Positions 1 through 15,311 of a DNA stretch of 58,363 nucleotides are shown in pieces. Location of the stretch: contig JAMPDH010000008.1 in the NCBI GenBank assembly GCA_023665725.1, forward strand, positions 1 to 58,363. The letters are read 5' to 3'. Both the position numbers and the translations under genes were made by a program. Position 1 is the stretch's first letter. Each line of letters opens with the position of its first letter. The stretch comes from Clostridium sp. Its GTDB lineage: Bacteria; Bacillota_I; Bacilli_A; RF39; UBA660. The notes beneath the pieces are model-generated. The model worked only from the letters and a program-made list of their open reading frames with translations. It did not search any database and was not told where the DNA came from.

Positions 1-316
<316 letters not shown>

Positions 317-385
317 CTCATGTTATTTTTTCTAAGTGAGATATCCACATTATCATGTTTTCAGAGAATAATTTCTCTATATTTA

Positions 386-430
386 ATTAGTGACTATAGC
401 AAAGAGGATACACCTGTTCCCATCTCGAAC
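386..430 (+). pseudogene. 5S rRNA, 5' half (host gene split by an integrative element)
   Basis: This is the first 45 nt of a 5S gene, running into the conserved CCATCTCGAAC loop. After position 430 the sequence stops resembling 5S. Its first nine bases, ATTAGTGAC, do not match the 5S-like sequence just downstream. They pair over nine positions (two G-U) with GTTGCTAAT at 10237-10245, the end of the other half. Joined at position 430/10187, the halves give 104 nt, the same length as the intact copy at 489-592. A 9-bp complementarity between 390-398 and 462-470 could let the hybrid transcript fold, but the product would be only 81 nt. Confidence 0.85.
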
Positions 431-431
431 A
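420..431 (+). other. attL core of the 5S-integrated element
   Basis: CCATCTCGAACA here and CCATTTCGAACA at 10176-10187 match at 11 of 12 positions and mark where 5S similarity stops on the left and starts on the right. The core lies in the most conserved internal loop region of 5S rRNA. The exact crossover cannot be fixed within these 12 bp. Confidence 0.7.
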
Positions 432-488
432 GAGATGTTGATAGATGTAGACCATAAAAGTTATAGTTACAAAAATAGTTAAAATTTT

Positions 489-592
489 AGTTGTGTTGAT
501 AGCCTAGTGGACACACCCTTACCCATCCCGAACAAGGAAGTTAAGCACTAGAACGCCGAAAATAGTGTATGCGAAGATAGGAAAATGCAACT
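489..592 (+). rRNA. complete 5S rRNA carried inside the element
   Basis: A full 104-nt 5S gene. Its 5' end AGTTGTGTT pairs over nine positions with its own 3' end AATGCAACT. It keeps CCCATCCCGAAC, GAAGTTAAGC, ACGCCGA and GCGAAGATAGGAA. By hand alignment it matches the reconstructed host 5S at about three quarters of positions with no gaps, so it is related but clearly diverged. It lies 58 bp after the break in the host gene, in the direction of the rRNA operon and ahead of a terminator, so transcription from the upstream rRNA promoter would include it. An alternative reading is a second, pre-existing tandem host 5S. Confidence 0.85.
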
Positions 593-610
593 ATTTTTTT
601 TTGCTTAAAA

Positions 611-645
611 AAGACTAAATCGGTTAAAATTTAGTCTTATTTTTA
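611..645. terminator. bidirectional terminator between 5S and int
   Basis: A perfect 10-bp stem (611-620 with 629-638) and 8-nt loop. A T-rich tail follows on the plus strand and a run of T on the minus strand, so it can end both the rRNA operon and the convergent int gene. Confidence 0.8.
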
Positions 646-1878
646 TGTCATTTTGTCGATGGGTGTCCCGTTAGGTGTCCCAGTTTTAGTAGTTTCATTA
701 TGCTTATTTCGTAAATTTGTTATGTCATTAGCAAGTAAAATTTTCCTTTCTTTATACATATGTCCATATTCATTAGAGGTTGTTCTAATATCTTTATGTC
801 TTAGTCTTGTTTTTATATCTTCTAGTTGCATACCCATATTGACTAATAGTGCTGCATGGCTATGTCTTAACTTATGAGGAGTAATATTTTTTTCTATTCC
901 TGCTCGTTTTAAATACTTTTTAATCATATCTCTAATAGCTTTGTCCCCAATTACTTCACATTTACCTCTATTATTAGCAAATAGATATTTACTTGTTATA
1001 TTCTTTTCTTTTCTATATTCTAAGAAAGTATGATAAGCATCAACTGTAATGTCATCTAAGAATAAATCATCTTCTGACTCCTCGGTTTTAGCATATGGTC
1101 TAATTTTACCTTTATAATATGTTTCAGTAATATTTAAAGATGTCCCTTCATCTGTAGTAATTATACTATCAGTAGAAAGTCCTAGTGCTTCGCTTATTCT
1201 TAAACCAGTATAAAATAGTAGTTGTAGCATAAATAAATCTCTAATGTTATCAACAACAGATAATAAATTTATAAATTCTTCTTCTTCTAGGTAAGCTACT
1301 TTCTTTTTCTCTTTCTCTTTTTTAAAATTGCCCACAACTCCAGCAGGGTTATAAGTTATTAACCTTTTTTTAACACAATAATTTAAAAAAGCAGATAACT
1401 GCTTATGTACTTTCATAAGTGTTTGCTTTGCTAATTTCTTTTCCTTTTCCCTTTGACAATTCATTTTCATTAAATCATCATGAAACTTATTAATATGTTC
1501 TTCCGAAATCTCAGCAATTTTTACATTACCTAATTTTGGAAGTATTTGATTTTTAAAGATTGTTTTCTTACCATCAACAGTCGATTCTGCTAGTGTACCT
1601 TTTCTTACTTTAAGTTCACATTCTTTTATATATGTATTAAACACATCTTTAAAAAGTTCCGTTTTCTTAGGTTGGTTGCCTTGTTCCTTAAATTTTACTT
1701 TTTCTTTTGCTATCCAGTTTTGAGCATCCTTTATTGTTTTTAAATTACATTTACTTTTTCGAACATCTTTATTATATAATATATCACGCAATTTAAAGTT
1801 AACAGCATATGTACCTTTTGTTTTGTGTTTATAGATATAATCATAATTAGTTTTATCATATTCTTCCCATTTTATCAT
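643..1878 (-). CDS. int: tyrosine recombinase / integrase
   Basis: A 411-aa integrase of the Tn916/phage type. The order is an N-terminal arm-binding part (AP2-like, about 1-60), a SAM-like core-binding domain (about 75-175) and a catalytic domain (about 195-390). Visible catalytic residues are Arg in TGLRISEAL, the HKLRHSHA box, a late His in RHKDIRTT and Tyr in SNEYGHM. It should integrate and excise the element by cutting at the 5S core site. It sits at the left end, as integrases usually do. The last codons, for GTPNGTP, are built from the tandem GGTGTCC repeat that recurs at the right end, so arm-type binding sites are embedded in the coding sequence. Confidence 0.95.
   Translation of the reverse strand: MIKWEEYDKTNYDYIYKHKTKGTYAVNFKLRDILYNKDVRKSKCNLKTIKDAQNWIAKEKVKFKEQGNQPKKTELFKDVFNTYIKECELKVRKGTLAESTVDGKKTIFKNQILPKLGNVKIAEISEEHINKFHDDLMKMNCQREKEKKLAKQTLMKVHKQLSAFLNYCVKKRLITYNPAGVVGNFKKEKEKKKVAYLEEEEFINLLSVVDNIRDLFMLQLLFYTGLRISEALGLSTDSIITTDEGTSLNITETYYKGKIRPYAKTEESEDDLFLDDITVDAYHTFLEYRKEKNITSKYLFANNRGKCEVIGDKAIRDMIKKYLKRAGIEKNITPHKLRHSHAALLVNMGMQLEDIKTRLRHKDIRTTSNEYGHMYKERKILLANDITNLRNKHNETTKTGTPNGTPIDKMT
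662..680 (+). repeat. left arm-type repeat (tandem GGTGTCC)
   Basis: GGTGTCCCGTTAGGTGTCC contains two GGTGTCC heptamers 12 bp apart and matches 10048-10066 at 18 of 19 positions in the same orientation. It lies inside the element near the left end, within int. The tandem spacing suits a binding site for the integrase N-terminal domain rather than a crossover core. Confidence 0.75.
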
Positions 1879-1944
1879 TTAATTTATTCTCCCATCTTTT
1901 CTAATTTCGTAATTAGTGCTATAATAGGAGTACAGAAAAAAAGT

Positions 1945-1961
1945 TGTTCTGTGCTAGATTA
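1945..1961 (-). promoter_or_regulatory. leader motif upstream of int, shared with xis
   Basis: Read on the minus strand, TAATCTAGCACAGAACA lies upstream of int and is identical over 17 bp to 2823-2839 upstream of the excisionase gene. Both copies are followed by a run of T. The shared sequence suggests a common operator or RNA signal acting on both genes. Confidence 0.6.
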
Positions 1962-1993
1962 ATTTTTTATTCTGTACGCTATTAATAGCGGTT

Positions 1994-2025
1994 GAGTTAG
2001 TGTTCCAGCACTAGCTCCTTTTTTT
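1994..2025 (+). terminator. hairpin between repressor and int
   Basis: A 9-bp stem (1994-2002 with 2009-2017, one G-U) followed on the plus strand by CCTTTTTTTATTTT. On the minus strand it lies just after the repressor stop codon and before int, where it could limit readthrough into int. Confidence 0.55.
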
Positions 2026-2377
2026 ATTTTCTTTTTAAAAAATTTTTAACCATTGATAATAAAATATCTAAATCTTCATCAGATAATTCAGCAGATATTT
2101 TAATTAGTTCTCTTCTTTTTTTCGACTTGGTATCAATTTCCAAATGTTCTTTATCATTATCTTCGGTAAGTTGACTTCTTGATATTCCAAAGTAATCTGC
2201 TAATTGTTTGATATTATCTTCACTTGCATAATTATAACAACTAAGCCAATTACTAAGGGTTGAATATTTAATCTCTAACTCTTTGCATATATCGTTTCTA
2301 CTAGTTCCTGTTAATAGCATATAGTATCTAAGATTTTTACTGAATATTTTACATATTGCTCGATTAGTATTTCTCAT
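2024..2377 (-). CDS. helix-turn-helix repressor (CI-like)
   Basis: A 117-aa regulator with an XRE-type HTH at about residues 8-65 and a charged C-terminal tail, without a peptidase domain. The start at 2377 is preceded by GGAGAGA; a longer reading to 2476 has no such site. It reads left while the small HTH gene, xis and rep genes read right, the usual immunity-switch layout. It probably keeps the element silent by acting on the divergent region at 2378-2660. Confidence 0.8.
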   Translation of the reverse strand: MRNTNRAICKIFSKNLRYYMLLTGTSRNDICKELEIKYSTLSNWLSCYNYASEDNIKQLADYFGISRSQLTEDNDKEHLEIDTKSKKRRELIKISAELSDEDLDILLSMVKNFLKRK

Positions 2378-2660
2378 ATTATCTCTCCTTCCAATAATAT
2401 AATACAGCATATCCGACAAAAATGCAATATACAAATTAAAATAAATTACAGAATGATACATAAAAATACTTGACAATCATTAAAGTTAGTAGTATTCTAT
2501 TTATCGAACGCACCAAATAGAATGCAAATTCAAGAAGTAGATAGTGTTCTAATTGTATATCAACAATGGAAGTTCTTATTTGAGAACTTTTAATTGAAGA
2601 TATAATTTTTTTGGAAGTTCGTTACAGCGTTGCTGGTAAATTTAAGAAAGGAGAGATATA

Positions 2661-2825
2661 ATGCCATTAAAAGAAACTAGACTTGATAATAACTGGAGTA
2701 TAGAAGAAGCGTGTTTAGTATTTGGACTGGATGCAGAAACTCTTTTTCGATACGAAAATGGTACAGAAATTCCAAATAAGTGGGCACTTAACATAATAGC
2801 AAGTGTTCTTGATGAAAGTAATTAA
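2661..2825 (+). CDS. small HTH protein (Cro-like)
   Basis: A 54-aa open frame starting ATG after AGGAGAG. The stretch WSIEEACLVFGLDAETLFRY followed by ENG reads like one XRE-type helix-turn-helix. It is the first rightward gene opposite the repressor, the position of cro or an early activator. The 183 bp before it (2478-2660) form the divergent control region, where I see no other gene. Confidence 0.65.
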   Translation: MPLKETRLDNNWSIEEACLVFGLDAETLFRYENGTEIPNKWALNIIASVLDESN

Positions 2826-2839
2826 TCTAGCACAGAACA
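2823..2839 (+). promoter_or_regulatory. leader motif upstream of xis, shared with int
   Basis: TAATCTAGCACAGAACA overlaps the stop codon of the Cro-like gene and lies 28 bp before the xis start. It is the inverted twin of 1945-1961, so int and xis have the same leader in the same relative orientation. Confidence 0.6.
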
Positions 2840-2866
2840 GTTTTTTTAATTAAGGAGGAAAAGACC

Positions 2867-3049
2867 ATGAATAGTAATATGCTTGATATAAAGCAATGTG
2901 CAGAATTTTTAAATGTTTCTATTTCACTGATTAGGAAGTTAGTTAGAAAAAATAAAATACCATATAACAGAATAGGAGCTAAGCTCTTATTCCCAAAAAA
3001 TGAAATTGACATTTGGTTAAAAGAAAACCAAAACAATATTGAATATTAG
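2867..3049 (+). CDS. xis: excisionase / MerR-like DNA-binding protein
   Basis: A 60-aa protein of the helix-turn-helix 17 excisionase family: DIKQCAEFLNVSISLIRKLV, then a basic segment and LFPKNEIDIWL. This fold is common in Xis proteins that steer tyrosine integrases toward excision. A strong AAGGAGG precedes the ATG. It is first in a tight rightward run with the two unknown genes and the helicase gene. Confidence 0.8.
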   Translation: MNSNMLDIKQCAEFLNVSISLIRKLVRKNKIPYNRIGAKLLFPKNEIDIWLKENQNNIEY

Positions 3050-3064
3050 AAAGGAATAATAAAT

Positions 3065-3604
3065 ATGAAAATAAAATCAAAAATAAGTGAATCATATGTA
3101 ATCGAAGTTGATGGAGAGATAACATTAAATTTAGTTACCCACTTGGCTTTTTTAAACAAAGATGAAGTAACTATATCTAGTCTATATGGAGATTTTGTGG
3201 ATATAACTCTTACGAAAATAGATATGTTAAAGATATCTAAATTTATTCGAGAAGATTATCCAAATCGTTCAATACTAAAATTGGATAATATCTCATTTGA
3301 AATTAACCCAAACTGGGTAATAATTACTAATGGGGATAAAAAAATAGAAATTCGACCTGAAATGTTTGAAAAAATAACCAAACATATAGAAGAAAGAGAG
3401 GAAAAAATTATGGAGAGTAGCAATCTTACTCAAGAAGTTTATAATAAAATTATAAACGCTACTGCTAGTCAGAATAATAAACCTACTGAAGAAATGGCGA
3501 AACCTATTGAAACTGTAGGTCAACAAAAAAAGCAAAGTCTTTATGACACAATTATAAATACTATGAAACAAGAAACAAAAGGAGGAAATGGAAATGGAAA
3601 ATAA
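3065..3604 (+). CDS. element protein of unknown function (179 aa)
   Basis: Not recognised. The first about 110 residues alternate beta-prone and charged segments; the last about 60 are polar and rich in Gln, Lys and Thr, probably disordered. It lies 15 bp after xis and overlaps the end of the next gene's ribosome site. It shares a loose pattern with the next protein (acidic and hydrophobic strands, then a helix ending EERE/EERK), so the two may be distant paralogues. Its position suggests a role in replication or its control. Confidence 0.7.
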   Translation: MKIKSKISESYVIEVDGEITLNLVTHLAFLNKDEVTISSLYGDFVDITLTKIDMLKISKFIREDYPNRSILKLDNISFEINPNWVIITNGDKKIEIRPEMFEKITKHIEEREEKIMESSNLTQEVYNKIINATASQNNKPTEEMAKPIETVGQQKKQSLYDTIINTMKQETKGGNGNGK

Positions 3605-3932
3605 TATAGACAAAAACAAATTAAAAAGATTTGGGGAGATAACAATACTTAATATAGATACTTTTATAGAGGGTAGTTATATTAAAATATGTAATGAAGA
3701 TGATTACATAGATAGTGCCATAGTTACTATTGATGAAATAATAAGTTTATATACTTTATCATTAACTCAAAATTATATATTTATTCAAACTCAAGATAAT
3801 AAATTCACTTATAATAATGGATGTTTTGAAATAGAAAGTCCATTTGCATGGTTGAAATTTACAAGAAAAGATTTTACTGCGTTTGGTAATTACATTTATG
3901 GCATAGTGGAGGAGAGAAAAGAAAATGGATAA
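3594..3932 (+). CDS. element protein of unknown function (112 aa)
   Basis: Not recognised. The start at 3594 is 8 nt after GGAGG, a better spacing than the ATG at 3588. The protein is acidic, with hydrophobic strands and a final helix ending in GIVEERKENG. Its end overlaps the helicase start by 8 nt, so the two are probably translationally coupled. Confidence 0.65.
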   Translation: MENNIDKNKLKRFGEITILNIDTFIEGSYIKICNEDDYIDSAIVTIDEIISLYTLSLTQNYIFIQTQDNKFTYNNGCFEIESPFAWLKFTRKDFTAFGNYIYGIVEERKENG

Positions 3933-5073
3933 TAATGTTAATAGCACTAGCTCAGCAGGTATATATAATATACTTGCTGAGCTACCCCAAAAGATACCTT
4001 ATAATGATACTGAGGTACTAACAAATGATACAGAAGAATTAAGATTAGTGAATTATTTTTTTTCCAGCATTAGCAGTCATAATCAGGAAGTGGAAACTCT
4101 ATTATATGAAGTGATAGGATACTCATTATGCAAAACTGCTAAACTTAATAAGGCCTTTATATTTAAGGGAAAAGGCAGAAATGGAAAGTCGGTCATTTTT
4201 CGTATAATAGAGAAATTAGTGGGTGCAAAACAATGCTCACATGAGCATTTAGAGAAACTATCAGGGAGTAAGGCTGGAAGCAAAACAACAATTAAGGCTT
4301 TAAGTGGGTGTACTGTTAATATAGCAGAGGACCAAAAGCAACCGAAGTATATTAATACTTCGATTCTAACTAGGTTAATATCAGGTGAACCTATTTCAGT
4401 AGAACAAACAGGTAATCATAGAATAGAGTTGACACCTAAGGTAACTATGTTATTCTCTGTAAATGAAGTAATAGACTTCAAAGAAACTGGTATTTATATA
4501 AAAGACCGTTTTTTGGTTATACCATTTAATGAGACATTTACTGATGATAATAGCAATAGAGATATTAATATAGTAGAGAAACTCTGCGAAGATAAAGCAC
4601 AGCAGATTATAGCAACTAGGGCTATTCAAGCATTTAGTAAAGTATTAAAAACTGGAAAATTTACTATTCCAAGCATCGTGGAAGAAGAAACTAAAAGGTA
4701 CTTTAGGGAATGTAACAATGTAGAAGAATTTTGTAGCGAACTACCTTTAAAAACAATTATCACTAAATCACAATATTATGATGAATATTGTAATTGGTGT
4801 AAGAGCAATAATAGGGAAGCAGTCAGTAGTTCTAAATTTGGGAAAGAAGTTTTAGCTCTAGGGTATAGAGCAGAACGATACCAATTTGAAGCTAAAAGAG
4901 ATACCTATTATGCTTCTCCAGATTTTAATAATTCCGATAGTAAAAATGTATATGATAAATACCGTAAGCAACATGATAATGCTGAGAGTAAAGGAACGAA
5001 TAATGAGATTTCATTTAATAATTATTTAGTAGAATGTCTTTATAATATAAATGATAATATTGAGAATGGCTAA
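3925..5073 (+). CDS. SF3 / D5-type replication helicase
   Basis: A 382-aa helicase of the phage/plasmid primase-helicase (P4/D5) family. Walker A is GKGRNGKSVIFRI near residue 80, a Walker B-like segment is CTVNIAEDQ, and an SF3 sensor Asn is in TMLFSVNEV; a winged-helix C-terminal part follows (about 260-345). P4 alpha-type proteins are usually longer because of an N-terminal primase, which is absent here, so this is probably a stand-alone origin-unwinding helicase. Repeats and palindromes directly downstream (5105-6000) could be its origin. Confidence 0.85.
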   Translation: MDNNVNSTSSAGIYNILAELPQKIPYNDTEVLTNDTEELRLVNYFFSSISSHNQEVETLLYEVIGYSLCKTAKLNKAFIFKGKGRNGKSVIFRIIEKLVGAKQCSHEHLEKLSGSKAGSKTTIKALSGCTVNIAEDQKQPKYINTSILTRLISGEPISVEQTGNHRIELTPKVTMLFSVNEVIDFKETGIYIKDRFLVIPFNETFTDDNSNRDINIVEKLCEDKAQQIIATRAIQAFSKVLKTGKFTIPSIVEEETKRYFRECNNVEEFCSELPLKTIITKSQYYDEYCNWCKSNNREAVSSSKFGKEVLALGYRAERYQFEAKRDTYYASPDFNNSDSKNVYDKYRKQHDNAESKGTNNEISFNNYLVECLYNINDNIENG

Positions 5074-5104
5074 ATGCTCTATAAGGTCTGTGTAAGGCTC
5101 TCTT

Positions 5105-5205
5105 AGGCTCTAGGAGGGCTTTTATTATATAAGGCGATAAAATTTTTGTAAAATAAGGTATGCCCCTGTAGGGCTTATAGAGGCTCTAGGAGAAGTTTTA
5201 TTATA
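5105..5205 (+). repeat. pair of 25-bp direct repeats behind the helicase gene
   Basis: Segments 5105-5129 and 5181-5205 start with AGGCTCTAGGAG and end with TTTTATTATA; they match at 22 of 25 positions and are 76 bp apart. Shorter AAGGCTCT and AAGGTCTG pieces precede them at 5083-5100. They resemble iterons, but their number is low. Confidence 0.6.
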
Positions 5206-6017
5206 GGCTTATATTAGTAGATAATAAAAGAGCTAGATCCATTTGGTGCCTAGCTCTGTATTATTTGGAATTTCACTATGCCACTATGCCACATACATTA
5301 GTAGACCATTCATTCGTATAATTTTATAGTAACACATTGTACCAGTTAATAATAAAGGTAGTAAAGAGAGGTATCCTTATATCTATAACAAATAAAATAT
5401 AAAGCACCAATAAAATCAACTAGTACAATGCTTATAATTATATACGAGAGTATATAATTATCTATCAATTAAATATAATAAGCCATAAGAAAACTATAGT
5501 TATTTCACTATAGTTGTTCTTACTAATATTCTAACATTCTTTTAATTCTTGTTTTCGACTTTCTTTACTTACATTTTCTTTTAATTTGTTTTTAATTTGA
5601 TTTGTTCTTTTTTAATATGACCTTTGATAATGTTTTTACTATTATTTAGATTATTGATATTATTATAATTATTTATTTCGTAGTCAAGAAAAACCTAAGT
5701 CCCACATACTATAGATTTCTCTTTTTAACATCTACATTATTGAATAACTACGACTAGATAAATTAACGGTCTGAGTTCCATTGTGTTACCACAAGTGTTC
5801 AGTATGACGGTTAAGGTAGACTTTAATCTTACTCAAATTTGGGTTGGTAAGAGAATTACTCCTAAGTTGGTCCGTATCTAGTATGAGCAAGTTTTTAAAA
5901 TCATCACACTAGGCTCAATAGTGTAATGATTAGGACATTATCTCTTTATTGGGTCCTGTTTTATAATGTAGTAGTAAATAATATTGTACTTACTATTACA
6001 ATATATACGACCTAATT
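5206..6017. other. structured non-coding region between convergent genes
   Basis: With the repeats before it, this is about 940 bp without a convincing gene. Visible hairpins are 5229-5257 (8-bp stem), 5435-5460 (perfect 11-bp stem with GAGA loop), 5492-5515 (9-bp stem), 5900-5930 (11-bp stem, one mismatch) and 5967-6000 (11-bp stem). The last 300 bp are less AT-rich than other spacers. It could be a replication or transfer origin or a non-coding RNA; the sequence does not decide which. Confidence 0.6.
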
Positions 6018-6632
6018 TCACACTTGATTTTTGATTAGAATTTTATCTATCAAACCATATTCTATACCTTCATCAGCATTAAACCATTTGTCCTTTAGTT
6101 GAATGTCTTGTCTAACTTGTTCAATGCTTTTGCCAGTATTATCTGCTAGAATTTTAATAATTCGTTCATTTAATGTATTGGTATGTTCAAAATCAACCTT
6201 TATTTCTCCAACTTTACCATAGCTACATGATGAAACTTCGTGTATCATAACTTCACTATTAGGAGTAATATATCGTTTTCCTTTTGTTCCACCACTAAGT
6301 AGCAATGCTGCCATTGAAGCACAACGACCTAAACATATTGTAACGACATCACTTTTAACCATCTGCATAGTATCATAAATGGCTATCCCATCTGAAACTG
6401 TTCCACCTGGAGAATTAATATAGAATATTATATCTTTCTTGCTTTTAGTAGCATCTAGTTTTAATAACTGCTCTGTTATTTCTTCAGCTACTTCTTTATC
6501 AATAGTTTTATTTAAGCGAATTATTCGATTGTCGAATAAGTTAATGTCAGAGGGTGTTTTAGGCTTAGTTTCTTTCTTTTTCTTCTTTTTAGTTTTAGCA
6601 TTAGACTTAGCCTTATTTTTATTTTCTTCCAT
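6018..6632 (-). CDS. ClpP-like serine protease
   Basis: A 204-aa ClpP-fold protease. After a lysine-rich tail (about residues 5-30) come INSPGGTVSDG, the nucleophile Ser in GRCASMAALLLS, His in VMIHEVSS, and Asp in LKDKWFNADEGIEYGLID, so the Ser-His-Asp triad looks complete. The core is the normal family length. Phage ClpP relatives usually mature capsids, but no capsid gene is present, so the substrate is unknown. It is last in the block behind ssb, one base after the ssb stop. Confidence 0.88.
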   Translation of the reverse strand: MEENKNKAKSNAKTKKKKKKETKPKTPSDINLFDNRIIRLNKTIDKEVAEEITEQLLKLDATKSKKDIIFYINSPGGTVSDGIAIYDTMQMVKSDVVTICLGRCASMAALLLSGGTKGKRYITPNSEVMIHEVSSCSYGKVGEIKVDFEHTNTLNERIIKILADNTGKSIEQVRQDIQLKDKWFNADEGIEYGLIDKILIKNQV

Positions 6633-6633
6633 T

Positions 6634-6936
6634 TTAGACTGCTCCTTTACTTGATAAAAATGTTACTTTCTCTGCGATTACTTCTAATCTATTTTCTTTG
6701 TTTTGCATTCTTCCCTTAATACCTACTAAGTCGCCTTTTTTACAGTATTCACAAGTATTGACTGCAATTGTATTCCATAAGACACAGGGAATAAAATCAG
6801 TTTCATATTCTCCGTTTTCATTCTTGAAACTTCTAGGTACTGCTAATTTTAATGAAGTAAACTTTCTTTCATTTTCTGTTTCGTTTATTTCTAGGTCCGA
6901 AACAACACGACCTACTAATACTATTTGATTTAACAT
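6634..6936 (-). CDS. ssb: single-stranded DNA-binding protein
   Basis: A 100-aa OB-fold SSB starting MLNQIVLVGRV, with the TDFIPCVLWNTIA strand and GDLVGIKGRMQ. It ends just after the OB fold and lacks the flexible tail and acidic DDDIPF-type tip that bring partner proteins to host SSB. It should coat single-stranded DNA when the element replicates but may not recruit the usual partners. AAAGGAATTGAGATA precedes the start. Confidence 0.9.
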   Translation of the reverse strand: MLNQIVLVGRVVSDLEINETENERKFTSLKLAVPRSFKNENGEYETDFIPCVLWNTIAVNTCEYCKKGDLVGIKGRMQNKENRLEVIAEKVTFLSSKGAV

Positions 6937-6972
6937 TATATCTCAATTCCTTTCTTTAATACATTTTAAATC

Positions 6973-8160
6973 TTAAATCTTGTATGTTCTTTTTGTCTTT
7001 AGATGTTCAATTCTATATGGTAAATCTAATTTATCGAAGTCGTGCGAGTCTTCGCCATGTATAGGAATAATTACATCAGGTTTAACAATATTACAAACCT
7101 CTTTAATTCCTTTAGAAGTTGCATGACCACTTGTGTGTAGGTAATAATATTCTTTGGGAACAAAACTAACAATACTTTCATCAGCATTAGCTCCTTCTAA
7201 ATATCCTAACCATTGAGAATAAATAAATAGGTTATCTTTGAAAGTAGGGCTATGAATGAACTTCTTTGAAAAGTAATTACTCCGTACTAGCATACAAAAA
7301 CCTTTGTCTACCATTTCATCATAATACTTTCTATCAAAACTCTTAACATCTGAAAAGTCGTAGTAGTCTTTATATTTCTTGCTAGTCTTTGTTACATAGT
7401 CCAGTATTTCTTTTTGGTAAATATCACATATAAATAGTTTATCTCCTGCTTTTTTGTTAGCATGGTAAAAAGAAGCTATCCTATCAATATTAGTAGAAGC
7501 ACACATTATAAAGACATACTTATTATCTTTTATTAGATTAATGGCTTCTTTTTGTAGTTCTAACTCAGATATAAAGATTTCATCTAATCTTGAAAGTGTT
7601 GTATGTTCACAAATGAGAATATCAACTTTTCCAATATCTTTAAGTATCTTATGTATATCTTGCCCATCAGGACCATGTGTACGAAAATCTCCAGTATGTA
7701 AAACTCTTTTCCCATCAGCTTCAATAAGAAACATATAACTATCGAAAGCAGAATGATTTACACGAATAGGGGTTATTTTCATATCTCCAATTTCTAAAGA
7801 TACATCTTGCTTAAATGTTTTGAAAGTCTTTAATCTATCAATATGTGCTTGTGTAACTTCTGCAATATTAGGCTCTTTCATTTTCTTTTGATAAATCGTA
7901 AATATTTCTTTGGCTTGTTCTCCAATATAAATCGGAACTTCCTTTTTTACTTGCATATATTCGCCAATATGGTCCAAGTGATAATGAGTAATAAAAACAG
8001 CATTACATTTCTTACTAATATTAGCGATATTCACTTTTACTTTACTTTCACAAGTTGGTAGATTGGAGCCAACATCAATAAGTATTTTAGTTTTCTTACT
8101 TTTTATTTCTGTTACACACCCACCAATTTGATTAATACCTCTGTGTATTTTTATTTGCAT
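6973..8160 (-). CDS. MBL-fold (RNase J-like) hydrolase
   Basis: A 395-aa metallo-beta-lactamase-fold protein. The metal motif is THYHLDHIGE, with a further ligand in VLHTGDFR. Late motifs HTSGHA and IPIHGE match the beta-CASP RNase J family, but the protein is much shorter than RNase J (about 550 aa). It could be a nuclease or phosphodiesterase. The ATG at 8160 is 8 nt after AAGGA; the ATG at 8166 is too close to it. It is followed by ssb and clpP, which suggests a shared nucleic-acid or stress task. Confidence 0.8.
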   Translation of the reverse strand: MQIKIHRGINQIGGCVTEIKSKKTKILIDVGSNLPTCESKVKVNIANISKKCNAVFITHYHLDHIGEYMQVKKEVPIYIGEQAKEIFTIYQKKMKEPNIAEVTQAHIDRLKTFKTFKQDVSLEIGDMKITPIRVNHSAFDSYMFLIEADGKRVLHTGDFRTHGPDGQDIHKILKDIGKVDILICEHTTLSRLDEIFISELELQKEAINLIKDNKYVFIMCASTNIDRIASFYHANKKAGDKLFICDIYQKEILDYVTKTSKKYKDYYDFSDVKSFDRKYYDEMVDKGFCMLVRSNYFSKKFIHSPTFKDNLFIYSQWLGYLEGANADESIVSFVPKEYYYLHTSGHATSKGIKEVCNIVKPDVIIPIHGEDSHDFDKLDLPYRIEHLKTKRTYKI

Positions 8161-8185
8161 AGACATTATCCTTTCTATAAATAAA

Positions 8186-8227
8186 ATACCATAGTTATTT
8201 TTATAAGTTTTAACACAAAATAAAAAG
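8186..8227 (-). repeat. repeat upstream of the MBL gene, copy 1
   Basis: About 42 bp nearly identical to 9988-10029 in the same orientation. On the minus strand it reads as a possible promoter, with TGTTAAAAC some 15-20 bp before TATGGTAT, placed directly upstream of the MBL gene. Confidence 0.5.
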
Positions 8228-8324
8228 CCCATTATCTAAACTGGACAATGGGATATATTTTTGGCTAATTTTCTGTTGTAATTTTATCTAAATTTTCACA
8301 AGTGCTAGATGATGATTTATCATT

Positions 8325-9383
8325 TTAATAATGAAAACTAAAAGAATTACCACTAAAACTAGCACCAAACCAATTTGTAGAATAATTAATAATTTCTTTT
8401 GAAGTATCATTACTCATATCCCATATACAACTACCACTACTGTAACACTCAGCAACAACGTAATCATCATACAAGTAATATACTTTATAATGGGCACAAT
8501 CATTTTCATTAAAAAGTATTTTTGCTTCGTTTTTATTAATATGTTTAATATTTGCCCAATAAATATGCCAAACATCTACCTTATAGATAGATGGCTCAAT
8601 AGTATAATAAATATTTTTATCATTTATATTTGATAAAATTAACCTTTTATTATGGATATCACAGCTTAGTGTACTATAATCAGATATATCAACAGCAAGT
8701 CTTAATTTATCTGTATCAATGCCATTAATATCTTCTTCTGAACCAAATATTTTAACTGTATATGGCATTAAAAAGTTTTCTATTCCCTCACCATGATTAA
8801 CCATTACGCTATAGCTTACAGCCGTAGTATTGGTATCAAAAAATTTATCTGCATCCCAATTTGATGATGTAACGCCTTGAAGCTCAAACTCTTTATTTTT
8901 AATATCTTCTATTACAATTTCACTCTCGCTTATATCCTCTTTAATATCAATAATAACTGTGTATTTATTATTATAACTAGAATTATCAGTTATTGCTTTT
9001 TCTATTTCTTCACTTGAATAAACATCTTCCCAATCTGTTTGAATACTTATATTATTAAAATTTATTCCATTGTCATATACTGTATCAGTTAAAGTTGGAA
9101 TAATATCTAATAGTGTTTTGTCTTTGAAGTCTATGTCTTTGTACATCTCCTTTGCATCATCATTAACTAAGTCATAATTTGTTATAACTGGATCTGTACA
9201 ATCATTATCCTTACAAGTCTGGGTAAGTTCCAGTTTTACTAATGGATTGATTTTAATATATGCTACATAGTTGTTAATGGCTTCTTTTTCTTTTTTAGTA
9301 TTAGTGTTTTCTTTATTTCCACAACCAGCTAGACTTATTACAAGACATCCACCTAATAAAAGCATAAGTAATTTCTTTTTCAT
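8325..9383 (-). CDS. lipoprotein with RsgI-like extracellular domain
   Basis: A 352-aa predicted lipoprotein. The signal peptide ends in lipobox LAGC (Cys about residue 21), followed by a charged linker. Residues about 40-115 (YIKINPLVKLEL, then LVNDDAKEMY) resemble the NP-x-(V/I)-x-(L/I) repeat of RsgI anti-sigma ectodomains; this is a pattern match, not a proven assignment. The rest is unassigned, with several cysteines near the C-terminus. It should sit on the outer face of the membrane and could sense envelope state. Its mRNA has a long structured leader. Confidence 0.75.
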   Translation of the reverse strand: MKKKLLMLLLGGCLVISLAGCGNKENTNTKKEKEAINNYVAYIKINPLVKLELTQTCKDNDCTDPVITNYDLVNDDAKEMYKDIDFKDKTLLDIIPTLTDTVYDNGINFNNISIQTDWEDVYSSEEIEKAITDNSSYNNKYTVIIDIKEDISESEIVIEDIKNKEFELQGVTSSNWDADKFFDTNTTAVSYSVMVNHGEGIENFLMPYTVKIFGSEEDINGIDTDKLRLAVDISDYSTLSCDIHNKRLILSNINDKNIYYTIEPSIYKVDVWHIYWANIKHINKNEAKILFNENDCAHYKVYYLYDDYVVAECYSSGSCIWDMSNDTSKEIINYSTNWFGASFSGNSFSFHY

Positions 9384-9522
9384 TATTCCACCTCTCTGAT
9401 ATTACAACAAAATAAAAGGAACACGATACTACCTTGTGTTCCGATACTGCTTAATGTTGGCTTAACTGCATACTGCTACCAACATTTACAACAATGTCGG
9501 ATTTTAGCACTTCTTACCGACA
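9384..9522 (-). ncRNA. structured leader with three hairpins and a terminator
   Basis: Read on the minus strand from a start near 9521, the leader holds three stems: 9522-9495 (6 bp), 9485-9454 (7 bp) and 9442-9418 (7 bp). The last is followed by a run like TTTTATTTTGTT, a Rho-independent terminator shape, and then GAGAGGTGG before the lipoprotein ATG. The motif GCAGTAT or GTAGTAT recurs in or between the stems. This looks like an attenuator or riboswitch-type control, or a small RNA with weak readthrough. I do not recognise a known family. Confidence 0.6.
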
Positions 9523-9527
9523 ATATA

Positions 9528-9557
9528 ATTTTAGCATAAAAACTAAAAAAATGTCAA
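9528..9557 (-). promoter_or_regulatory. sigma-A promoter for the lipoprotein leader
   Basis: On the minus strand TTGACA (9557-9552) is followed after 18 bp by an extended minus 10, TGCTAAAAT (TAAAAT at 9533-9528). The predicted start is immediately before the first leader hairpin. Confidence 0.7.
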
Positions 9558-9563
9558 TACTTT

Positions 9564-9609
9564 TTGTAGAGAAATACCTTACAATATTTTGTTAGGCAAT
9601 TCTCTACAA
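9564..9609. promoter_or_regulatory. inverted repeat before the HTH gene
   Basis: TTGTAGAGAA at 9564-9573 and TTCTCTACAA at 9600-9609 form a perfect 10-bp inverted repeat in the divergent region between the lipoprotein promoter and the HTH gene. It is a likely operator for that regulator. Confidence 0.6.
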
Positions 9610-9628
9610 TAATAGTAGAGGTGTTGAT

Positions 9629-9880
9629 ATGAGATTAAATAAACCACTTAAAACTCCAAAATATGATACTGACATATACAATACCATTCGTAAAAACATT
9701 AAAAAATATAGGAAACTAAAAGGCTTAACCTCTGAGGAACTTTCAGAAATGGTAGGCTTATCTCATGAGTTTATAAGACAAATCGAAAGTGAGAAAGTAG
9801 CATATAACTTTTCAGTAGATACTTTATATAAAATATCAGTTGCTTTAGATGTTAGCATAGATACCTTAATTAAAAAGTAA
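9629..9880 (+). CDS. XRE-family transcription regulator
   Basis: An 83-aa single-domain regulator with an XRE helix-turn-helix at about residues 20-80 (LSEMVGLSHEFIRQIESEK). It is transcribed away from the lipoprotein block across a short region with an inverted repeat, so it probably controls itself and the cargo promoter. It is a distinct gene from the left-end repressor. Confidence 0.85.
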   Translation: MRLNKPLKTPKYDTDIYNTIRKNIKKYRKLKGLTSEELSEMVGLSHEFIRQIESEKVAYNFSVDTLYKISVALDVSIDTLIKK

Positions 9881-9987
9881 ACTAAATTAAGACATCTTTA
9901 TATAAAGGTTATACTTCTTGTTATATTTATATACGAAGTATATAAATATTCAATTATCTATTCATTATCAACAACCTTAATTATAAT

Positions 9988-10029
9988 ATACCATAGTATT
10001 TTTAATAAGTATTAACACAAAACAAAAAG
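9988..10029 (-). repeat. promoter-like repeat, copy 2
   Basis: The second copy of the roughly 42-bp sequence at 8186-8227. On the minus strand it would drive transcription leftward over 9880-9985, where I find no gene but see an AT-rich palindrome around 9925-9950. It could express an antisense RNA to the HTH gene. Confidence 0.45.
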
Positions 10030-10047
10030 AAGTACCAAAAATCAAGA

Positions 10048-10066
10048 GGTGTCCCATTAGGTGTCC
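10048..10066 (+). repeat. right arm-type repeat (tandem GGTGTCC)
   Basis: GGTGTCCCATTAGGTGTCC, matching 662-680 at 18 of 19 positions. It lies about 110 bp inside the right junction, as expected for an arm-type integrase site. Confidence 0.75.
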
Positions 10067-10175
10067 TGAAATCTAAAATAGAGTATGATAATTTAGAGTA
10101 TTTTATAACAAATTCATTAAATTAAAAACCACTATAAAACAAAGGGTAATAAGCTATGATAATAGTCTAGTTTGT

Positions 10176-10187
10176 CCATTTCGAACA
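10176..10187 (+). other. attR core of the 5S-integrated element
   Basis: CCATTTCGAACA is the right copy of the 12-bp core at 420-431. From 10187 the sequence is again clean 5S rRNA, while the 25 bases before it are not the natural 5S first half. Confidence 0.7.
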
Positions 10188-10245
10188 CAGAAGTTAAGCT
10201 CTTTTACGCCGACAATAGTGTAAGCGAAGATAGGAAGTTGCTAAT
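10187..10245 (+). pseudogene. 5S rRNA, 3' half (displaced host part)
   Basis: The last 59 nt of a 5S gene, with GAAGTTAAGC, TTTTACGCCGAC and GCGAAGATAGGAAG, ending GTTGCTAAT and a T run. It has no matching 5' half beside it; its partner is 386-430, with which it forms a 9-bp stem I. It is 9.8 kb from the rRNA promoter and probably silent as 5S while the element is in place. Confidence 0.85.
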
Positions 10246-10350
10246 TTTTTTTTGTACATTTTTAACTTATATTTAAAAATATTAAAATATTGCATACTTT
10301 ATGTTGTAATATTTTTTTGTTTTTACTATAATATTCTTAGGTGATAATTA

Positions 10351-10803
10351 ATGCAATATAAAATAACTTCTAATAATGAATCAAATACAATTGAATTAGC
10401 ACAAAATATAGAATCTGAAAAATTTGAAAATATGATTATTTGTCTAGATGGTGAATTAGGTAGCGGGAAAACTGTATTTACTAAGGGTTTTGCAGATGCA
10501 CTTGGTATTGATGAAAATATTACATCTCCTACATTTACAATAATAAAAGAATATCAAAGTGGTGAAATGCCACTTTACCATATGGATGTATATAGATTAG
10601 ATTCTTCATCTGATGATATTGGAATTGAAGAATATTTTACAAAAAAAGGTGTAGTTATTATAGAATGGTCTAGTATGATTTTTGATATTCTCCCAAAAGA
10701 AAGATTGGATATTAAATTTAAAATAATTGATGAAAACAGGCGTATTGTAGTTATTACTCCACATGGTAGAAAATATGAAGAACTTTGTGAGGCAGTTTTA
10801 TGA
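10351..10803 (+). CDS. tsaE: tRNA t6A biosynthesis ATPase TsaE
   Basis: A 150-aa P-loop ATPase with Walker A GELGSGKTVFTKG and the family segment SPTFTIIKEY. It works with TsaB and TsaD in N6-threonylcarbamoyladenosine modification of ANN-decoding tRNAs. GGTGAT precedes the start. Its TGA stop overlaps the tsaB ATG (ATGA), and the run tsaE-tsaB-rimI-tsaD is a common Firmicutes order. Confidence 0.95.
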   Translation: MQYKITSNNESNTIELAQNIESEKFENMIICLDGELGSGKTVFTKGFADALGIDENITSPTFTIIKEYQSGEMPLYHMDVYRLDSSSDDIGIEEYFTKKGVVIIEWSSMIFDILPKERLDIKFKIIDENRRIVVITPHGRKYEELCEAVL

Positions 10804-12911: not shown

Positions 12912-13523
12912 TTGAAGAAGATAGTTATTTCTATTGTTTCAATTATCATAATTGGAGCATTAATATTTCTTTGTTTTTGGAGTAAAAAAGATAGTAATTT
13001 AAAACATGTAAAAGTTGCAGAAGTAACGCACAGTGTATTTTATACACCACAATATGTAGCACATGCATTGGGGTACTTTGAAGAAGAGGGATTAGATGTC
13101 GAAATCATTCTAACATCAGGAGCAGACAAAGTTACAGCTGCTGTACTATCAGGAGATGTCCAAATTGGATTCTGTGGTAGTGAAGCGACTATATATGTTT
13201 ATAATCAGGGAGAACAGGATTATTTAGTTAATTTTTCTGGTTTAACAAAAAGAGATGGGAGTTTCATAGTTTCTAGGGAAAAATATGATAATTTTACATT
13301 AAATGATATGGTTGGAAAAACTGTAATTGGTGGTAGAATTGGTGGAATGCCAGAAATGACATTGGAATGGATTTTAACTCAAAACGGTATTGATGTAGAA
13401 AATGATTTAACTATAGATACAAGTATTGCATTTGCCTCAATGGGTGGAGCATTTATAGGTGGAACAGGTGACTTTGTATCTTTATTTGAACATAGTGCAA
13501 CGATAATCACTCACCTATGCTAA
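12912..13523 (+). pseudogene. ABC substrate-binding protein, 5' part, interrupted
   Basis: The first 193 codons of an NMT1/SsuA-like substrate-binding protein: a membrane or signal segment (about 4-24), HSVFYTPQYVAHALGYFEEE, and the DKVTAAVLSGDVQIGF motif of NitT/TauT-type binders. The start is TTG after AAAGGAGG. From codon 193 the frame enters a serine-recombinase element and ends after about ten foreign residues. The missing 137 residues are at 16740-17150. The ATPase and permease genes follow at 17394, so the importer lacks an intact binder while the element is present. Confidence 0.9.
13488..13491 (+). other. attL of the serine-recombinase element
   Basis: GAAC here and at 16737-16740 is the sequence common to both junctions. 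Joining there restores the frame as Phe-Glu-Pro-Asn-Ala. Inside the element, GCAACGATAA (13497-13506) is an 8-of-10 inverted match to TTATCAGTGC (16720-16729), so the reconstructed attP is a dyad centred on this core. Confidence 0.75.
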
Positions 13524-13550
13524 AATAAATTTGCTTATTAAATTTGCAAA

Positions 13551-15311
13551 TTACATACAAATATATGAATTTACTTCATATTTCACTATATATCTAGTTG
13601 TACTAGTAGTATTATAGCCTCTTTTAAATTCATAATTTTTTTTTATAAAATTTTTAAAGTTTTGAGTATTTGGAATTATTGGTTGCAATACTGATTTTTT
13701 GATAAATTTATCTGAAAAATTGAAAAAAATTTTTAATTCTATATTCTTTTTATCATTATTTATTTTTGATACAATAATTTTATTCAATAGTATTTCAATT
13801 AATTTTTCTTTAGTTTCTTGTGATTTTATTTTTAGTTTTAATATCTTTTCTAATTTCTTATTTTTATCCTTAATATCATTAAAATTTTTTTTATTTACTT
13901 CTAATAATGTAATATTTTCCTCAATTTTACTTAATTCTTTATTATAATCATTATTTCTATGATTAAACTCGTTATTTGATAAATTACCTTCAATATTAAG
14001 TTCTAATAACTTTTCTTTTTTTATAAGTATTTTGTTTTTCTCTTTTTTTAATTCTGTTATTTTGTTATCTACACTAACATTTTTAATATTATTTTTATAA
14101 AGATCTAATAATATATTAGATACGTTAGATAATTCAATTTCTAATGATTTTATGATATCATTAAAAATAGCATATATTTCAGATTCTCTAATATTAGGGG
14201 AATTACATTTTTTAACTCCTTCTTTTAAATGTTTAGCACAAGTCCATGTTATATCATTAGACGATTTACATTGTTTTCTTCTATGAAAAATCTGATTATC
14301 TTCAGAACAATAAATTTTTGCAGACAATGCATACCTATTTTGATACATTATTTTATTTTGCAGATAATCTTTACCAAAAGTTTTTTTTCTTGATTGTAAT
14401 CTTTCATTAGCTCTATCCCATAAATTTTCATTAATAATAGGAGGAATTCTTATTTTGTCTTTATGGATGACCCAATCTTTTTCAGGGATCATTATTACCT
14501 TTTTTGTCATATAATCAATTACCTCTGTTTTTTTTCCACAGTAATAACCTTTATATTTTGGATTTTTAATCATTCTGGTTAATGTGGAAGTGCACCATTT
14601 CTTATTTTGACAAGTTTTAATTCCTTCCTCATTAAATATTTTAGCAATTTTCGTTATAGACATTTTGTCTATAGCATACATCTTATATAATCTTTTCACT
14701 AAATTAGCTTCTTTTTCAATTATAATTAAATTACCAGTTAACTTATCCTTTTTATACCCATACAATAAATTATTGCCTAAAATAGTTCCATTTTTAATCG
14801 ATCTATTCATACCAAATTTTACTCTTTCAGACAATCTCCTTATTTCATCTTGAGCCATTGATGACATAATTGTCAATCTTAATTCTGAATCTGGCAAAGC
14901 AGTGTTTATGTTATCATTAACAAACAGTACTGCTACTCCATAGAATAATAATTCTCTTGTATATTTTATACTATCAAGTGTATTTCTAGAAAATCTTGAT
15001 ATTTCTTTTGTAATAATTAAATCAAATTTTCCATTTCTAGCATCATCTATCATTCTCATGAAGTTATCTCTTTTGTAATCCGTTGTGCCACTTATACCAT
15101 CATCTACATATCCTGAAACATAAGTCCAATTTTCATTACTTTTAATCATTTCATCAAAGTGTTCTATTTGATTTTTTAAGGACTTTTGTTGCTCAAGATG
15201 ATCGGTAGATACCCTAGAGTAATCTGTTACCCTAAGTTTCATTTTAGTTAGCGGAATGCCCATATTAAGTTGCTTTCGAACAATATATAGATCCATTAAA
15301 CATCTAGCCAC
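13551..15311 (-). CDS. large serine recombinase
   Basis: A 586-aa recombinase of the phiC31/TndX class. An N-terminal resolvase domain has YSRVSTD with nucleophile Ser about residue 35 and ITKEISRFSRNT. The recombinase domain follows (about 190-300), then a zinc ribbon with cysteines in KIYCSEDN, KQCKS, TWTCAKH and KKCNS, then a long lysine-rich coiled coil (about 400-520). It appears complete. It should excise the element and so restore the binding-protein gene if a directionality partner is present. Confidence 0.95.
   Translation of the reverse strand: MARCLMDLYIVRKQLNMGIPLTKMKLRVTDYSRVSTDHLEQQKSLKNQIEHFDEMIKSNENWTYVSGYVDDGISGTTDYKRDNFMRMIDDARNGKFDLIITKEISRFSRNTLDSIKYTRELLFYGVAVLFVNDNINTALPDSELRLTIMSSMAQDEIRRLSERVKFGMNRSIKNGTILGNNLLYGYKKDKLTGNLIIIEKEANLVKRLYKMYAIDKMSITKIAKIFNEEGIKTCQNKKWCTSTLTRMIKNPKYKGYYCGKKTEVIDYMTKKVIMIPEKDWVIHKDKIRIPPIINENLWDRANERLQSRKKTFGKDYLQNKIMYQNRYALSAKIYCSEDNQIFHRRKQCKSSNDITWTCAKHLKEGVKKCNSPNIRESEIYAIFNDIIKSLEIELSNVSNILLDLYKNNIKNVSVDNKITELKKEKNKILIKKEKLLELNIEGNLSNNEFNHRNNDYNKELSKIEENITLLEVNKKNFNDIKDKNKKLEKILKLKIKSQETKEKLIEILLNKIIVSKINNDKKNIELKIFFNFSDKFIKKSVLQPIIPNTQNFKNFIKKNYEFKRGYNTTSTTRYIVKYEVNSYICM

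Follow-up and report, generated by a model that had tools for sequence, protein, structure and literature searches.

What supplies 5S ribosomal RNA (rRNA), which no ribosome can do without, to a bacterium whose 5S gene has been split by a mobile element? Genes for rRNA are usually regarded as vertically inherited and as too essential for integration, and the question is raised by the window analyzed here, the whole stretch of 58,363 nucleotides (GCA_023665725.1, contig JAMPDH010000008.1) from an uncultured gut bacterium filed as Clostridium sp. (RF39; UBA660) and represented by a 1.09-Mb metagenome-assembled genome (G000, contig C28). Near its left edge an integrative element of 9.76 kb (9,756 bp from core to core of its attachment, or att, sites) lies between the two halves of a host 5S rRNA gene and carries a complete 5S gene within its left end. 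Comparison of this locus with its relatives shows that the host gene is split in loop C and rebuilt at neither junction, and makes it very likely that the carried 5S replaces the lost 5S in ribosomes. All genomes compared are metagenome assemblies, and the copy number of their rRNA operons (rrn) was estimated from sequence searches and is uncertain.

The split host 5S gene

The rRNA features of the locus are as follows.
1..319, + strand: 3' end of the host 23S rRNA gene at the contig edge (Rfam RF02541, 326.8 bits, model positions 2606-2925)
386..430, + strand: 5' half of the split host 5S rRNA gene, on the left junction (attL) side; helices I-III form between it and the right half, and the joined gene scatters among intact host 5S genes
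489..592, + strand: complete carried (replacement) 5S rRNA gene (Rfam RF00001, 65.1 bits against a cut-off of 38, Rfam span 489-593; clade support 100/99; compensatory changes)
10187..10245, + strand: 3' half of the split host 5S gene with a T-run terminator; identified by its pairing with the left half and followed by host tsaE at 10351

From left to right, the end of the 23S gene, whose 5' part sits on another contig of the same genome (C26), is followed by a short spacer, the 5' half of the 5S gene, the att core, the complete 5S gene, a T-run with an AT-rich hairpin, and the integrase gene on the opposite strand. Beyond the 3' half lie a T-run and host genes reading as tsaE, tsaB, a rimI-like gene and tsaD. 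Joined together, the left half (through the GAAC that ends at 430) and the right half (from 10187) give a gene of about 104 nucleotides in which all 20 tested pairs of helices I-III form. A 5S gene split between 386-430 and 10187-10245 had been described in an earlier sequence-only reading of this DNA; its coordinates hold to within a few bases, and the layout recurs in ten further genomes. No functional 5S is regenerated at either junction: the flanks 386-475 and 10142-10246 score 21.9 and 19.7 bits in Rfam, where the gathering cut-off is 38, and the chimeras at attL and at the right junction (attR) of the elements score 15-34 bits where listed, again under the cut-off.

The ten further genomes carry integrases with 73-81% identity to that of the window. 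The first relative came from another genus (G124, 74% identity), and ten integrase loci were found in a collection of 84,980 species genomes, one of which (L051, in G204) is the same contig as G124. In each of the 11 elements the 5' half of the host 5S gene is followed by a spacer, a carried 5S gene, terminators and the integrase, and matching 3' halves were found for all 11, either at the other end of the element or on another contig. The sequence-only reading had proposed to see whether other elements with this integrase carry a 5S copy too; 11/11 integrases of the clade (one of them truncated) adjoin a carried 5S gene.

The halves fit only their own partners, as in AAAGAG with CTCTTT in the window, TTAGTG with CACTAA in G204, or the helix III strands CUGU with ACAG and CUCU with AGAG. 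When each left half is joined to its own right half, 215 of the 220 pairs tested in helices I-III across the 11 genomes can form; permuted combinations average 181.3 (standard deviation 6.0), and in 100,000 trials not one of them reached that number. The two host halves are thus parts of one gene.

Sites without the element point the same way. Family members that lack it have a 23S gene, one intact 5S gene (single in nearly all those examined) and often tsaE directly after it, for example in G003 and G032, the gene that also stands behind the 3' half in the window. A copy like 489-592 in tandem behind the first 5S gene, which would have spoken for a native pair, was not found in these relatives, and intact genes of the type begun at 386-430 always run into a matching 3' half, so that this piece is not a complete 5S variant elsewhere. 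One genome, G198, has two rrn loci. On contig C76 tsaE comes after an intact 5S gene; the element occupies the other locus (contigs C58 and C27), behind which lies an ABC-F-type gene. Joining the two halves from the occupied locus gives, letter for letter, the intact 5S of contig C76.

Partial 5S matches in five other genomes (G016, G069, G074, G088 and G066) were considered as att remnants and rejected, as all end exactly at contig ends. Separately, G039 has, besides an ordinary 5S, a second one (L089, contig C73) with an unusual longer 3' arm and an apparent tRNA start close behind it.

The carried 5S gene

The gene at 489-592 matches the joined host gene at 79 of 107 aligned positions, that is, it differs by 26% with no internal gap; the sequence-only reading was right in describing an intact, ungapped 5S, diverged at about a quarter of its positions, inside the left junction. 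A tree of 54 5S sequences places the 11 carried copies in a single clade (support 100/99), with the joined host genes scattered among the intact host 5S genes. All 11 carried genes are complete, scoring 62-69 bits. Among their nine distinct sequences 100% of the helix I-III cells pair, and in six of the pairs both partners have changed; covariation scores 0.30, as against 0.10 for shuffled sequences and at most 0.06 for slid structures. This alignment shows a carried gene selected as a structured RNA.

The carried copies depart from host genes in helix III. It reads CUGU/ACAG or CUCU/AGAG in 44/44 host genes (33 intact and 11 joined) versus CCUU/AAGG or CCAA/UUGG in 11/11 carried genes, where the RNA pairs equally well. 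In the hosts, helix III together with the next bases forms a near-perfect dyad, TGTTC-7-GAACA, at the att core; hosts match the dyad at 4-5 of 6 positions and carried copies at 1-2 of 6. Both carried forms occur interspersed across the integrase tree, where at least two switches between them appear to have taken place. The simplest reading is that the altered helix III would free the carried gene from recognition by the element's own integrase.

The gene is followed by a probable transcription end.
593..646, + strand: T-run, then AT-rich hairpin AAGACTAAAT...ATTTAGTCTT with a T-tail (read from the sequence; layout kept in all relatives)

A simple GC-based terminator scan does not list this hairpin, and a scan for a separate promoter of the carried 5S gave no more than shuffled sequence.

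Movement between hosts and decay

Over 3.6-4.1 kb the elements of G199, G200 and G203 share 99.7-100% identity. The hosts are far less alike: in comparisons with G203 only 79-81 of 106 positions of the joined 5S agree, TsaE is about 66% identical in each of the three pairs, and G200 and G203 have 340 of 387 positions in common across the 23S tail and spacer. Near-identical elements thus sit in divergent hosts, so the element is mobile, and this comparison shows its recent transfer between clearly different hosts.

In G205 (locus L138) the element has decayed to 5.66 kb, its integrase being truncated, the metallo-hydrolase open reading frame (ORF) fused to the C-terminal part of the integrase and the primase region gone; the carried 5S is intact despite this decay (68.6 bits), and G205 is a candidate for a host locked into a foreign 5S. 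The element of G202 (L136), at 12.4 kb, contains a Mutator-family transposase of 399 amino acids.

Integrase and attachment sites

Integration is attributable to the following features.
420..431, + strand: left att core CCATCTC-GAACA, common to attL and attR in 11 elements
427..439, + strand: right arm of the core, contributed by the element, GAACAGAGATGTT; the same in 11/11 elements
643..1878, - strand: tyrosine recombinase (integrase) of 411 amino acids (PF00589, E=1.7e-27; SAM-like N-terminal domain)
661..681, no strand assigned: putative left arm-type integrase-binding repeat GGTGTCCCGTTAGGTGTCCC, overlapping the 3' end of int; repeated near the right end and in most relatives
10047..10067, no strand assigned: right arm-type repeat AGGTGTCCCATTAGGTGTCCT, matching the left-end repeat; in most relatives
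10176..10187, + strand: right att core CCATTTC-GAACA (from comparison of the elements)

The alignment of the integrases shows conservation of the catalytic residues R227, H335, R338, H361 and Y371, and this R-H-R-H-Y set occurs together with att sites composed of a core and arm sites, as in other elements with tyrosine integrases. The repeats GGTGTCCC..TAGGTGTCC are present at both ends (661-681 and 10047-10067) outside the cores, as expected of arm-type sites. The common core is short (about 12 bp), and in 11/11 elements it falls in loop C, the most conserved part of the host 5S gene. As the two variable letters of CCATYYC segregate to one junction or the other depending on the genome, these 7 bp, lying between the dyad arms TGTTC and GAACA, are probably the crossover (overlap) region.

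The attL core pattern CATYYCGAACASAGATGTT was found in 7/386 family genomes and had no match in the reversed control. Five of these seven genomes were covered by the integrase searches, and the element was found in all five; the remaining two (G520 and G568) appear to be G203 and G196, judging by the coordinates of their occupied loci. An order-wide search with the integrase gave matches in this family only (6/385 genomes). More distant integrases, with 27-35% identity (G033, G007, G065, G066, G070 and G088), were tried as further members and dismissed, with no 5S nearby at E-values up to 0.5.

A predicted hairpin over the orphan half

At the left end the element carries a sequence that can fold back on the broken host half.
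460..470, + strand: GTTATAGTTAC, complementary to the 5' strand of the host 5S, closing a hairpin over the orphan half (386-475; RNA fold)

This left end has a sequence of the type GTTATWGTTRC, whose complementarity continues past the usual extent of helix I and into loop A. In the window, the attL chimera folds as RNA into one hairpin (-30.3 kcal/mol, z = -7.4); four other elements have a similar one, with z = -3.1 to -4.8. In 9/11 elements shuffled spacers seldom match the pairing of the spacer (at most 10/500). Such folding would make the broken half unavailable for pairing with the carried 5S, and the complementary strand may derive from a decayed 5S 3' half that was part of the attachment site of the free element (attP).

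A model for the locus and its alternatives

These observations suggest a model in which the tyrosine integrase recombines inside loop C of the host 5S, leaving the gene split and unrebuilt at both junctions. By its position the carried gene does stand behind the host rRNA promoter, as the sequence-only reading stated; its transcription from there is a probable consequence of this layout. The host promoter should be usable because the carried gene lies beside attL within the host rrn operon, and transcription would pass through the 23S gene, the broken half and the carried 5S to end at the terminators behind the latter. The carried RNA would then take the place of the lost 5S in ribosomes, with its altered helix III protecting its gene from the element's own integrase and the hairpin shielding the orphan half, and excision of the element would restore the host gene.

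Could the locus have arisen in a more ordinary way? Many contigs break in the 23S gene near the element, which might suggest faulty assembly or binning of a repeated rRNA locus. Such an artefact is hardly credible when 11 genomes with different host flanks agree in having junctions exact to the base and halves that match, several of them with both junctions on one contig. The gene at 489-592 might instead be the native second copy of a tandem pair, an ordinary element having inserted into the first copy with its true left end after 592. Tandem 5S genes do occur in some bacteria of this class (for example G094), and the carried copy, though diverged, is clearly of the 5S type of this bacterial family. 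We nevertheless regard a native pair as very improbable: intact relatives have no second copy, the carried copies cluster together and apart from their hosts, near-identical elements bring identical carried 5S genes to hosts whose own 5S differ by about 25%, and the carried copy has the att core on one side and the arm repeat of the integrase on the other.

It is also conceivable that the carried 5S is a passive passenger or decoy, serving mainly to terminate rrn transcription or to block re-integration while other loci supply the 5S rRNA. The intact second 5S locus of G198 agrees with this, and further operons may be hidden in metagenome assemblies. We consider a passenger role unlikely in view of the strong compensatory evolution and the high scores of all carried copies, their retention in the decayed element of G205, and the fact that in 10/11 genomes the searches turned up no complete 5S other than the carried gene (with the reservation that such assemblies may lack operons). 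The replacement of the host 5S by the carried one, which we prefer, has points against it as well. The intact copy kept by G198 means that replacement may not be essential in hosts with several operons, and since all the genomes are metagenome assemblies extra rrn operons could be collapsed or missing. The carried copies are of one origin, and the helix III contrast consequently rests on few independent events, which is why we put forward self-protection as a hypothesis. The helix of the hairpin is also weaker in G197 and G204, although the G197 spacer was trimmed too short in the shuffling test for its row to be informative.

With less assurance, though with some inclination in its favor, we suggest that a mobile lineage has made 5S both an integration target and a dependency device, carrying a 5S that keeps its fold without the integrase site, capping the orphan half and spreading between genera, so that the ribosomes of its hosts would run on a foreign, mobile 5S. 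This would be a case of an rRNA gene repeatedly broken and replaced by a mobile element, and if it is true the decayed element of G205 would mark hosts locked into the foreign copy. It makes testable how far a 5S may diverge from its ribosome and remain functional, how a substitute is protected from its own integrase and how elements become indispensable. Further integration sites may lie concealed in rRNA operons, since methods for finding islands seldom look there, and 5S would be horizontally transferable.

Other genes of the element

Besides the integrase the element encodes the following proteins.
2024..2377, - strand: helix-turn-helix (HTH) repressor-like regulator (Pfam HTH matches)
2867..3049, + strand: excisionase-like HTH_17 protein (PF12728, E=8e-11; PHROG 66, excisionase)
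3925..5073, + strand: P4/D5-type primase-helicase (DUF5906; PHROG 864, DNA primase, E=1.2e-58)
6018..6632, - strand: ClpP-like protease (PF00574, E=6e-60)
6634..6936, - strand: single-strand DNA-binding protein (SSB; PF00436, E=4e-21)
6973..8232, - strand: metallo-beta-lactamase-fold protein with an RMMBL domain, RNase J-like (PF12706 and PF07521)
8325..9383, - strand: predicted lipoprotein (by sequence, its N-terminus resembles a lipobox; without a strong family match)
9629..9880, + strand: HTH regulator (PF01381, E=8e-13)

No capsid, terminase or relaxase genes were recognized among the Pfam and PHROG matches of these proteins, nor any packaging genes, and the gene set is compatible with a satellite like the phage-inducible chromosomal islands. 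By its gene content the element fits best, possibly, as a phage satellite or a plasmid-like integrative element. For the primase-helicase only distant phage and plasmid relatives were found; neither relatives of the integrase nor the exact carried-5S motif were found in IMG/VR, and phage records gave no match to the carried 5S.

Two virus-classed contigs of IMG/VR have 5S genes of their own. L168 (IMGVR_UViG_3300019742_000015) has a solitary 5S at 7998-8112 (71.4 bits) between late-type and antirepressor-type phage genes, and no tyrosine integrase was found in this 17-kb record; L167 (IMGVR_UViG_3300031853_002777) has one at 13279-13395 (38.8 bits) near the contig end, adjoining a transposase-like ORF and a serine recombinase. 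Elsewhere in the window, 12912-15311 is possibly a second integrative element: there, an ORF for a large serine recombinase (13551-15311, - strand) comes immediately behind one (12912-13523) that resembles a truncated ABC-transporter substrate-binding protein.

Comparison with known systems

Genomic islands and prophages in tRNA and tmRNA genes share with the 5S element a tyrosine integrase, a bacterial attachment site (attB) in a structural RNA gene and ends marked by a fragment and an intact gene. Islander-type islands rebuild their target at one junction from a piece borne by attP (PMC4383910), whereas the 5S element regenerates a functional target gene at neither. The TIGER/Islander census, with 33.8% of sites in tRNA or tmRNA genes, 43.4% in coding and 22.8% in intergenic sequence, has no rRNA class (PMC12424338). 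With phage-inducible chromosomal islands and other satellites the element has in common its size of about 10 kb, an integrase, an excisionase-like HTH protein, a repressor and a P4/D5-type primase-helicase; unlike in those islands, no packaging or capsid-interference genes were recognized in it.

The sequence-only reading had held that no described family does what this element does. In the open-licence literature we indeed found no element that targets 5S or any other rRNA gene, but the strategy as such has precedents, in tRNA genes and in a protein-coding gene. In the tRNA-dependent lysogeny of actinobacteriophages (Fionnbharth and others; Guerrero-Bustamante and Hatfull 2024) a tyrosine integrase uses a short core in a tRNA gene that is not reconstructed, and a phage-encoded replacement tRNA is required for lysogeny (PMC10865867). 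Like these phages, the 5S element has its attB in an essential structural-RNA gene and a short core, leaves the gene unrebuilt at attL and attR, and carries a complete gene of the same kind. Unlike them, it targets 5S rRNA rather than tRNA and has no virion or structural phage genes that we could find; its carried gene adjoins attL within the host rrn operon and is free of the integrase dyad, and the orphan half is predicted to be folded away. Dependence has been proven experimentally for the tRNA phages, and the 5S element is known here from its sequence. The recA mobile element of Vibrio cholerae S24 likewise interrupts a housekeeping gene of which it supplies a complete, diverged version, and its excision restores the host gene (PMC4405046); an insert in Clostridium difficile that disrupts thymidylate synthase and brings another version of it is cited in the same work. 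Both the recA element and the 5S element split a gene and carry a divergent copy, the target being protein-coding in the former and a non-coding structural RNA in the latter. In its mechanism the 5S element thus most resembles tRNA-dependent lysogeny (PMC10865867) and the recA mobile element (PMC4405046), and what appears to be new in this 5S-rRNA-dependent integration is the rRNA target and the details at the level of the RNA, in the service of a strategy already known.

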